NCBI RefSeq assembly: GCF_030848505.1 | Contig: NZ_JAVDDU010000003.1 | Location: 496,001 to 560,000 of the forward strand | Direction: 5' to 3' | Source: Marinimicrobium hydrolyticum | GTDB taxonomy: Bacteria > Pseudomonadota > Gammaproteobacteria > Pseudomonadales > Cellvibrionaceae | Length of the DNA stretch: 64,000 nucleotides | Shown here: positions 16,581 through 51,192 of the stretch, piece after piece | Numbering within the stretch: the first letter of the stretch is position 1 | How the letters are laid out: each line of letters opens with the position of its first letter | The notes under the pieces: generated by a model | Databases searched by the model: none | Told to the model about the DNA's origin: nothing | The model's input: only the letters and a program-made list of their open reading frames with translations | Program-made: the position numbers and the translations under genes

Positions 16581-16694
16581 CTTCGTAAGCAAGTCCTCGG
16601 GCCGCACAGGGTGAGTGTTCAGCAAACGTCGTGAACCCCTCCATGGGGACTGCCTCACAAGGTCCCTCTTGCGAGGCTTGCTGAACACCCACCC
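16581..16694 (+). repeat. Double-hairpin repeat, copy 1
   Basis: Outer stem 16609-16625 with 16678-16694 (17 bp, one mismatch). The 5' arm is followed by the conserved core ACGTCGTGAACCC.TCCATGGGG and by an inner hairpin GCCTCACAAG / CTTGCGAGGC with loop GTCCCT. A left flank, CTTCGTAAGCAAG to GGCCGC.CAGGG (16581-16610), is shared with copies 5 and 6. It lies in the radC upstream region. Confidence 0.85.
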
Positions 16695-40139: not shown

Positions 40140-40230
40140 CACCATTGACGCGCAAACAAGAGGTAATACCCCCTTTGCGCCGCGCTTTTCCGTTGACTTT
40201 ACCCCCTACGTCCCCTAAATTGCGCCCCAG

Positions 40231-40352
40231 ATGCAAGGTGCCTACTGCCCCGTAAGGGGCTGAGTAGGGTAAACGGGAAGCTGGTAATCCAGCGCTGCCC
40301 CCGCAACGGTGATCGGAGCCCTCGGCTCCGTAAGCCCGATACCGGCCTGTGT
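40231..40352 (+). promoter_or_regulatory. Cobalamin (B12) riboswitch
   Basis: Contains the expected elements in order: AAGGTGCC near the start, GGGAAGCTGGTAATCCAGC, the conserved GCTGCCCCCGCAACGGTGA and TAAGCCCGATACCGGCCTG. Adenosylcobalamin binding should reduce expression of btuB and the genes behind it. It lies about 130 bases before the btuB start; the 40140-40230 interval shows no other feature. Confidence 0.95.
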
Positions 40353-40484
40353 CGATTCGTTGATGGAGCGGAGGGCTACCATCCAGCAATTCTTCACGTG
40401 CCCAGTGCGTTCAACGCCAAGCCGCGTCGCTTTGCTTTTCCTCCCTCGATCCCGGTTTACTTTAAAAAACCTTAGGGGTTGATC

Positions 40485-45487: not shown

Positions 45488-46264
45488 ATGGCCGTGCTGG
45501 ATGTAAAAAACCTGAGCGTGCGCATCGGCGAGAAGGATTTAGTGTCCGACGTATCCTTTTCTGTGACGCCCGGCGAGGTGCTGTCGGTTATTGGCCCCAA
45601 TGGCGCGGGCAAGACTACGCTGTTGCGCGCCATTACGGGTGATGCGCCTTCAACAGGCGAGTTGCGCCTTAACGACCGACCGCTGTCCGACTGGTCACCG
45701 AAAGAGAGGGCGCTGAGTCTCGCGGTTTTGACGCAGAGTAATCCGCTCGCGTTCGCGTTTACGGTGGAGGAGGTGGTGTCTTTAGGGCGCGGCCCGCACA
45801 GCACCGGCACGGTGATTGATCGCGAGGTGTGTCAGGAGGCGATGGCGGCGTTGGATGTGAGCCATTTGGCCAATCGACTTTATCCGTCGTTGTCGGGTGG
45901 TGAGAAGCAACGCACGCAGTTGGCGCGGGTGATGGCGCAGATTTGGCGGCCGGATGGCAACGCGGATCGTTTGTTGTTGTTGGATGAGCCAGTAACGTCT
46001 TTGGATTTGGGTCATCAACGGCAGTTGATGCAGGCGGTGCGCCGCTTTGCGGACAGCGGTGTGGCGGTGTTGATGGTGGTACACGATATCAGTTTGGCGG
46101 CCGCATACAGTGATGAGGTGTTGGCGTTGAACGATGGTCGCTTGGTTGCTTTGGGTTCGCCGGAGTCGGTGGTGACGGAGTCGTTGATCGGGGATTTGTT
46201 TGGTACAGAGGTGCGGGTGATTGCGCATCCGGTTTCGGGGAAGCCGGTGGTGTTGGCGGGGTAG
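45488..46264 (+). CDS. btuD: Corrinoid ABC transporter ATP-binding protein (HmuV/BtuD-like)
   Basis: 258 aa. Walker [10 protein letters not shown], signature LSGGEKQRTQ, Walker B LLLLDEPVTSLD, H-loop VVHDISLAAAYSD. By sequence it belongs to the HmuV-like branch often annotated for heme, but its place between a FecCD permease and cobalamin genes makes corrinoid import the likely role. From here to about 53 kb the coding strand becomes markedly G- and T-rich (TTG, GGT, GTG codons). Confidence 0.88.
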   Translation: MAVLDVKNLSVRIGEKDLVSDVSFSVTPGEVLSVIGPNGAGKTTLLRAITGDAPSTGELRLNDRPLSDWSPKERALSLAVLTQSNPLAFAFTVEEVVSLGRGPHSTGTVIDREVCQEAMAALDVSHLANRLYPSLSGGEKQRTQLARVMAQIWRPDGNADRLLLLDEPVTSLDLGHQRQLMQAVRRFADSGVAVLMVVHDISLAAAYSDEVLALNDGRLVALGSPESVVTESLIGDLFGTEVRVIAHPVSGKPVVLAG

Positions 46265-46340
46265 TGGTTGGTTTGTTATTTGAAGGGAAGGTTGGCCTTG
46301 TGCGGCGTTATGGCACAGTAGGCGCTGGACGGGCCGCTTC
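46265..46340. other. Start of a 576-base repeat-filled gap inside the cobalamin cluster
   Basis: The interval 46265-46840 between btuD and cobU has no gene. It is mostly occupied by palindromic repeats (46341-46431, 46471-46499, 46662-46784), listed separately. A 266-codon open frame from 46592 runs through them into cobU, but its first 83 codons are repeat-derived and are not counted as coding. Confidence 0.7.
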
Positions 46341-46431
46341 GGGGTATGCCCTTCCAAGACACGCCGTGAACCCTTCCCTGGGGGCTCTGCACCAACATCC
46401 TGTTGGTGAAGGTCTTGGAAGGGCATACCCC
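46341..46431 (+). repeat. Double-hairpin repeat, copy 3
   Basis: Outer stem perfect over 20 bp (46341-46360 with 46412-46431, GGGGTATGCCCTTCCAAGAC and its complement). Core ACGCCGTGAACCCTTCC then CTGGGGGCT; inner hairpin CACCAACA / TGTTGGTG with a short TCC loop. Arms differ from the other copies while core and layout agree. Confidence 0.85.
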
Positions 46432-46470
46432 AAATCGTCCCTCGTAAGGTGGTCCCCACCAACACTCTTT

Positions 46471-46499
46471 CGTCATTCCCGCGAAAAGCGGGAATCCAT
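46471..46499 (-). repeat. REP-type palindrome
   Basis: ATTCCCGC-GAAAA-GCGGGAAT within CGTCATTCCCGCG...ATCCA. This is a widespread dispersed proteobacterial repeat form; on the minus strand it reads TGGATTCCCGC..., matching the copy at 51266-51294. Confidence 0.8.
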
Positions 46500-46661
46500 A
46501 GTGGTTGGGTGCTAATCGGTTCATCTGTCTGGATTTTTGAATTAACTGCATTTAAAGAAAGTACCGATTTTGGTAACGACGTACTACCCAGGTGGACGGA
46601 AAGGTTGCCCAGGGTTTTGAGAGAGGTATGAAGCCGACGCGGAGCGTACAGGGACGATTCA

Positions 46662-46784
46662 CTGGGCACATTCGTGTGCCCAGCCTTCCGGGCAGCCTTC
46701 GGCTGTGCAATCGGCTATCCTGCCGATTAGTCACGACGTTTGCTGAACACTCACCCTGCGCGGCCCTCAGACTTGCTTACGAAG
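46662..46784 (-). repeat. Mosaic repeat, copy 6: shared flank module joined to three stem-loops
   Basis: Bases 46731-46784 match the left flank and outer arm of copies 1 and 5 (TTTGCTGAACACTCACCCTG, GCGCGGCCCT, CTTGCTTACGAAG). At the CGTGA step the usual core is replaced by three adjacent hairpins: AATCGGC/GCCGATT (46709-46728), CAGCC/GGCTG (46693-46705) and CTGGGCACA/TGTGCCCAG with a TTCG loop (46662-46683). Confidence 0.75.
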
Positions 46785-46840
46785 AAGTAACTCTAGGACA
46801 CGGTGCCAGGTATGTCCTACACAACAAGGGTCCTTTAGAA

Positions 46841-47392
46841 ATGCCACAACTTATTTTAGGTGGAGCGCGCAGCGGAAAAAGTCGCATGGCAGAGCGCCGA
46901 GCACGGGAGTGGACGGTTACTCATGGTGGTGAATTAATGTACGTCGCCACGGGCGCTGCTGGTGATGAAGAAATGACGCAACGCATTGCCATTCATCGGG
47001 AGCGGCGCGGGCCGGAGTGGGAGTTGATTGAAGAACCCGAAGATTTGGCGGGCGTGCTCGCAACGTGTCGTAACCGGCGCGTGTGTTTGGTAGTGGATTG
47101 CTTAACGCTGTGGGTAAGTAATTGTTTGCACAAGGGGTCGTGGGATCAACAGCGGGAACGTTTGCTGACCGAGCTGAAAAACTGGAATCAATCATCACCG
47201 CAAGTAATTTTTGTCAGTAACGAAGTGGGTTCCGGCATTGTACCTTTGGGCGAATTGTCTCGACAGTTTGTGGATGCCAGCGGTTGGTTGCATCAGGCAC
47301 TGGCGGAAGTGTGCGAGCGGGTAACTTTGGTGGTAGCCGGCCTGCCCATGGAGTTAAAGCACCAACATAACAATGAACAAATAAACGGATAG
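46841..47392 (+). CDS. cobU: Adenosylcobinamide kinase / cobinamide-phosphate guanylyltransferase
   Basis: 183 aa, usual CobU length. P-loop LILGGARSGKSRMAE at the start, RIAIHRERRGPEW, and the segment VVDCLTLWVSN. Phosphorylates adenosylcobinamide and then forms adenosyl-GDP-cobinamide. ATG 46841 (MPQLILGG) is the natural start with AAGGG upstream; sequence before it is repeat DNA. Confidence 0.95.
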   Translation: MPQLILGGARSGKSRMAERRAREWTVTHGGELMYVATGAAGDEEMTQRIAIHRERRGPEWELIEEPEDLAGVLATCRNRRVCLVVDCLTLWVSNCLHKGSWDQQRERLLTELKNWNQSSPQVIFVSNEVGSGIVPLGELSRQFVDASGWLHQALAEVCERVTLVVAGLPMELKHQHNNEQING

Positions 47393-51076: not shown

Positions 51077-51192
51077 GCAGGGTGAGTGTTCAGCAAGCCT
51101 CAAAAGAGGGACCTTTTGAGGCAGTCCCCACGGACGGGTTCACGACGTTTGCTGAACACTCACCCTGCGCGGCCCTGGGCTTGCTTACGAAG
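51077..51192 (-). repeat. Double-hairpin repeat, copy 5
   Basis: Outer stem perfect over 20 bp (51077-51096 with 51149-51168, GCAGGGTGAGTGTTCAGCAA and its complement); inner hairpin GCCTCAAAAG / CTTTTGAGGC with loop AGGGAC. The right flank GCGGCCCTGGGCTTGC then TTACGAAG (to 51192) is the reverse complement of the left flank of copy 1, so this is the closest relative of copy 1 in reverse orientation. Confidence 0.85.

Follow-up and report, generated by a model that had tools for sequence, protein, structure and literature searches.

A probable chimera of two interspersed repeat families, joined through a shared RtT-type hairpin module, upstream of cobU in Marinimicrobium hydrolyticum

The window analyzed here is a stretch of 64,000 nucleotides from the genome of Marinimicrobium hydrolyticum. 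It contains a cobalamin cluster, and within this cluster an apparently chimeric repeat copy lies between the gene for an ABC-transporter ATPase (45488-46264) and cobU (ATG at 46841), which encodes a bifunctional adenosylcobinamide kinase. A longer cobU frame in the open reading frame list starts at 46592 and runs through the repeat; this frame is probably spurious. Approximately 200 bp upstream of the chimera is a second long palindrome of the CACGCCGTGAACCC type (46335-46437), and between the two, about 160 bp upstream of the chimera, is a CGTC-tagged palindrome (CGTCATTCCCGCGAAAAGCGGGAATCCA) at 46471-46498. Similar CGTC palindromes are visible beside some other copies. The only match in the window at the Rfam gathering level is a cobalamin riboswitch (RF00174, 56.8 bits) at 40218-40364. 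The parts of the repeat copy, and the arms of its neighboring palindrome, are as follows.

46335-46360 and 46412-46437: arms of the second palindrome, 26 bp, up to 2 mismatches
46633-46659, plus strand: left half, family-2 remnant GCCGACGCGGAGCGTACAGGGACGATT, partner arm absent
46660-46731, plus strand (RtT-sense strand is minus): module M, very likely of RtT type, 72 nt, bounded TT^CA...GT^C
46662-46683, plus strand: hairpin 1 of M, 9-bp stem with TTCG loop, family-2 type
46684-46692, plus strand: hairpin 2 of M, 3 pairs in the family alignment A1 (columns 28-39), weak in the window copy
46694-46704, plus strand: hairpin 3 of M, AGCC TTC GGCT
46709-46728, plus strand: hairpin 4 of M, AATCGGC TATCCT GCCGATT
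46683-46686, no strand: best-fit crossover between family 2 and host 1, inside M (cautious range 46660-46686)
46732-46785, plus strand: right half of host 1, right arm TTGCTGAACACTCACCCTGC at 46740-46759, left arm absent

The right half belongs to an interspersed repeat that we call host 1, and the flank module at 46731-46785 matches more than 30 other places in the genome. Its near-identity to two other copies in the window, pointed out in an earlier sequence-only reading, was borne out at 94.4% (51140-51192) and 92.6% (16581-16634, minus strand); these are presumably copies 1 and 5 of that reading. In L016, a typical host-1 copy, an outer stem of 20 bp (GCAGGGTGAGTGTTCAGCAA / TTGCTGAACACTCACCCTGC) surrounds the P2 hairpin as well as a smaller one at CCCCATGGATGGG. 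L016 gave a z of -10.6 when folded as DNA; folding of L010, a host-1 copy that bears M, gave -9.7. We read 40 host-1 copies, which are part of the genome's total (40/103 candidates scored, with core motifs at further places), and counted their classes by hand from 74 rows in which most palindromes appear on both strands. Twenty-two of the 40 are plain. Insert A alone is carried by three copies, B alone by three, A with C by four and C alone by one (L021 being classed as C-like by eye), while M occurs once together with A and once together with B. Four copies, including the window copy, are without their own left arm, and one is cut by a contig end. The inserts occupy distinct positions: A and B lie in the loop of the P2 hairpin, C in the GGA^TGGG loop, and M at TT^CACGACG in all three of the host-1 copies read that carry it. 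Since L009 and L010 retain the usual left half of host 1, M is an insertion there and not a replacement. Moreover, the presence of all four combinations (A-plain, A-M, B-plain and B-M) requires either exchange or repeated insertion. The switch at TCACG/CGTGA described by the sequence-only reading is real, and its position is identical to the base in all three M-bearing copies. That reading had further proposed that the elements are modular and recombine at one defined point in the core. Modularity holds, as inserts A, B, C and M combine; however, inserts are found at several host-1 sites, so the repeats are modular at several points and not at one.

To the left of the flank, as had been reported, three stem-loops lie side by side (46662-46683, 46694-46704 and 46709-46728) and bear no relation to the usual core; the hairpin with the TTCG loop (46662-46683) is the last of them when read leftwards from the flank. 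A fourth hairpin (46684-46692) is absent from the best fold of 46660-46732 and its alignment columns hardly vary, so a count of three is fair. Folded as single-stranded DNA, 46660-46732 gave -22.7 kcal/mol as against -9.8 (sd 2.2) in shuffled sequences (z -5.75; 0/200 shuffles as good). The family alignment A1 comprises 43 modules, 11 from the window genome and its same-genus relative G001 and 32 from other bacteria, mostly Gammaproteobacteria as judged from their names. These derive from 86 stretches found, of which 80 were taken as loci and held 91 pattern matches; 57 of the 91 passed a hairpin filter, and manual removal of seven left 50, of which 48 were distinct. The rows of A1 are 32 of these 48 distinct modules and 11 of the 13 prepared from the window genome and G001. 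Changes on both sides of the stem were seen at 14 of the 17 pairs in hairpins 1 and 4, and double-changed cells in these two hairpins numbered 144, compared with 49.2 in shuffles (0/500 as high) and 6-23 in slid controls. These paired changes indicate that M is conserved as a structure. As hairpins 2 and 3 were largely fixed by the search pattern, covariation is visible only in hairpins 1 and 4.

We next consider the left half. Positions 46633-46659 closely follow the left part of L053, a copy of the second repeat family (family 2, or host 2) in G001, with a single substitution and a short indel between them. No host-1 left arm lies near the window copy, though the right arm is intact. Parents of both types that bear M exist, namely L009 and L010 for host 1 and L011, L012, L017, L018 and, in the sister genome, L053 for host 2. 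When L053 and L010 were taken as parents, all 24 informative sites in 46630-46683 were L053-like, and thus host-2-like, while beyond 46683 18 of 19 informative sites were host-1-like; the exception, 46697, differs only in L010. Hairpin 1 of the window copy is accordingly of the family-2 type, and hairpins 2-4 together with the right flank are of the host-1 type. The other family-2 parents fit the left side less cleanly, with, for example, 3/23 sites against for L012 and 6/24 for L018, both versus L010. The change point fell at 46682/46683-46686 in 12/12 parent pairs (six of seven family-2 copies by two host-1 copies, L014 being left out), with permutation p values from 5e-5 (the floor) to 0.007 in a test dominated by the unrelated flanks. 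The eight informative sites of hairpin 1 form four base pairs and are not independent, and since they are paired and few we give the cautious range of 46660-46686; the crossover could lie anywhere in it if the change in hairpin 1 was confined to the ancestor of L009 and L010. As the left flank and hairpin 1 are of family 2, the rest is of host 1 and the best fit is 46683-46686, the exchange most likely ran through the shared M and not through the CGTGA step. That step, where the sequence-only reading had placed the join, is instead the boundary of M.

Neither of the enclosing stems is intact in the window copy, where the outer stem of host 1 cannot form and family 2 is without its partner arm. 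Folding of 46643-46785 as a whole was only a modest improvement on shuffles (z -2.66; 2/200 as good); the copy is therefore probably an inert scar. A reciprocal product was not seen among the 67 M flanks listed. The single same-genus genome (an 86% complete draft) had no match to cobU, and M was found at cobU in none of 11 loci scanned from 13 genomes with a match, leaving the event undated.

The distribution of M was surveyed with R1, a covariance model made from A1, whose 43 rows match by construction. The window copy is one of these rows and scored 80.4 bits (genome C23:542662-542732). In the window genome R1 found 35 copies of M (E<=0.01; 150/1999 candidates scored), many of them outside host 1, and the module is thus not unique to the window copy; uniqueness would have counted against the sequence-only reading. 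Thirteen of the 35 lie just downstream of a tRNA gene (Asp, Ala, Ser or Arg) on the opposite strand, three in host 1, and six in host-2-type repeats, four with the CGGCGTGTCC right flank and two with CGGAATAG. The remaining 13, ten of which were retrieved as sequence, fall in other places or in places assigned to no class. Beyond this genome, R1 matched 45/61 genomes of the family (E<=0.001), with up to 51 copies per genome, and 65/185 genomes sampled in the class (E<=1e-5), the window genome being included in both counts. Ten of 29 loci from other genomes (L191-L219) have an opposite-strand gene immediately upstream, which encodes a tRNA in five cases and a tmRNA in the other five. Of the settings identified for M, the commonest is a T-loop-like sequence lying downstream of a tRNA or tmRNA gene. 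In tRNA tails M interrupts this sequence as GGGATT [CA...GT] CGAACCC, and a boundary similar to that in host 1 is found both there and at the corresponding point of host 2. We examined the ends of 73 of 74 rows (one place seen twice was dropped and another is still double-counted): 61/73 copies finish in GT[C/G/T] and CA or GA precedes 58/73, figures that lean towards the consensus because R1 sets the ends of M. The sequence that follows M is GAAC or AACC in 23 of the 73, host 1 or 2 in 10, AT in 7, a tandem copy in 5 and other sequence in 28. Tandem arrays of M have a period of 71-91 bp. Two loci, L049 (genome C2:32300-33900) and L048 (C29:126000-128500), lie behind tRNA-Asp genes; one arrangement seen there is a pair of modules spaced by 186 bp in repeated tails, and the other, at a separate locus, is a row of three tandem modules of 74-75 bp.

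RtT (Rfam RF00391) is released as a stable RNA, and to our knowledge the role of rtT is still unsettled. In E. coli K-12 the rttR region (tyrT-tyrV) contains four Rfam RtT matches. R1, which has no E. coli row among its 43, matched all four of these repeats on the complement strand in an unfiltered search of 2 kb, at 11.1-20.3 bits (E 1.3e-4 to 0.017). In the other direction, the Rfam RtT model exceeded its threshold of 45 on two M copies in Serratia L119 (48.8 and 46.7 bits) and stayed below it in two other genera (35.1 bits in L102, 30.4 bits in L110). It found no match at gathering level in the window, none at E up to 5 in 46400-46900, and none at E<=1 in nine loci scanned from the window genome, tRNA-tail copies included. 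Other Rfam matches, to miRNA and plastid UTR families and to most of the sRNA families, fell short of threshold and were set aside; Ysr251 in L081 was above threshold but lies far from the module. Taken with the T-loop architecture, the response of R1 to all four E. coli repeats and that of the Rfam model to the Serratia copies make it very likely that M is the RtT core, diverged beyond Rfam's model in the window genome. The likeness extends to the core on the complementary strand, the T-loop-like setting and repeats that contain the tRNA 3' end, and the layout of the tRNA-Asp tails in the window genome resembles the E. coli tyrT repeats. However, M in the window sits in interspersed repeats and not in a tRNA tail, there being no tRNA in L174. 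The text on rtT in PMC2965389 speaks only of a possible role. A literature search for rtT under other names found nothing relevant, and relevant papers may still exist.

These data are best explained, we think probably correctly, if the window copy is a chimeric remnant in which two interspersed repeat families were joined by non-reciprocal exchange inside a shared M, this M being the core of RtT-type tRNA-tail elements. M would have come to lie in three settings: the T-loop-like sequence of tRNA tails, perhaps the original one, host 1 at TT^CACGACG, and the matching point of host 2. A host-2 copy and a host-1 copy would then have undergone non-reciprocal exchange with the shared M as homology, leaving the host-2 left flank and hairpin 1 joined to hairpins 2-4 and the host-1 right flank; the exchange may have been homologous recombination, gene conversion or a template switch at the hairpins. 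It could be argued that there was no exchange, that M was inserted into a host-1 copy whose left half was then lost, and that the likeness to family 2 is due to chance. L009 and L010 do carry M at the same exact point of host 1, and three other host-1 copies read also have no left arm of their own. However, agreement of the left flank with L053 at every informative site up to 46683 makes this account very unlikely. A less improbable proposal, which we still regard as unlikely, is that M is itself mobile, a small DNA element that travels as single-stranded hairpins, much like IS200/IS605 or RAYT-mobilised REPs, and inserts next to TT^C in loops and without target duplication, so that the junction is an insertion site. 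The similar boundary in host 1, in host 2 and in the T-loop-like sites of tRNA tails, the preferred ends of the 73 copies (subject to the model having set them), the tandem arrays and the high copy numbers are all consistent with such mobility. Insertion alone, however, leaves the host-2 left flank of the window copy unexplained, and no gene for a Y1 transposase (PF01797) was found in the window genome in a search whose controls were positive in 5/14 known genomes. Across the 61 family genomes M and Y1 occur together in 29, M only in 16, Y1 only in 11 and neither in 5, with no association (Fisher p 1.0, Spearman 0.04).

It is also conceivable, if doubtful, that the hairpins arise and spread by fold-back copying or template switching in the course of replication. 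The tRNA tails would then be inverted copies of tRNA 3' ends on either side of a terminator hairpin, and the chimera would be the result of a template switch at M. By eye, the M-bearing tails of L049 and L050 do hold inverted tRNA 3'-end copies around a terminator-like hairpin. In addition, the stems of M change on both sides while G-U pairs are few, at 8/577 standard-paired cells (inner six pairs of hairpin 1 plus hairpin 4) as against 19/477 cells in the acceptor and T stems of 40 tRNAs. This difference is weak (Fisher p 0.010, with cells that are not independent), and we regard the depletion as suggestive only of a DNA-level process and not as proof of one. Template switching and ordinary recombination are, moreover, not separated by these data. 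Exchange through the shared M remains our preferred reading. Ordinary recombination of this kind explains the window copy but not the first arrival of M at T-loops and repeat loops, and it is this arrival, at one recurring boundary, that is the interesting remainder. One speculative answer, to which we give rather little credence, is that the RtT core is a self-standing mobile module of Gammaproteobacteria that places itself at TT^C in the T-loops of tRNA and tmRNA tails, in analogous repeat loops and at the start codons of accessory genes, by means of a non-RAYT enzyme or a replication process. In these findings rtT RNA, the repeats of tRNA tails and interspersed mosaic repeats, which are generally treated separately, are connected by a single covarying module whose boundary recurs, and R1 together with TT^CA...GT^C provides a countable unit with which the origin and spread of rtT can be tested.

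A likeness of rtT to mosaic elements is already in print for Enterobacteria: the text on rtT in PMC2965389 reports that a cluster of enterobacterial BIMEs has members similar to rtT. Like BIMEs, the repeats described here are interspersed palindromic elements with modules in varying combination (four insert types among the 40 host-1 copies). In contrast to BIMEs, the modules are M, A, B and C within long inverted repeats, and no RAYT gene was found; a RAYT-driven REP/BIME origin was rejected, as no Y1 transposase was found in the genome and the family shows no correlation. Six sequence words of a related core motif had no match in the literature. By eye, the palindrome at 46471-46498 resembles the dRS3/CGTC-1 type among the CGTC-tagged REPs treated in PMC3733652, as far as that type is described there; it is a neighbor of the chimera and not part of it.

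A further setting of M was noticed at five loci, where the module lies on the RtT-sense strand directly before a start codon and hairpin 1 ends at the ATG. These were picked by eye, among the matches listed, as cases with the full module next to an ATG, the loose pattern having returned 1029 rows that are mostly chance.

L077:2597-2642, L213:1527-1573 and L204:1527-1573, plus strand: M before a start codon
L214 and L202, minus strand: M just before open reading frames at 359-1501 and 602-1501, respectively

Pfam assigned the five proteins to a type III restriction Res subunit, an S49 peptidase, Fic and AbiEii, with one 172-aa frame unassigned. From the sequence it is possible that M has been reused as a translation switch in accessory genes. 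In L077, L213 and L204 the loop of hairpin 1 is GGGAGG or GGAGG, which by eye is Shine-Dalgarno-like.
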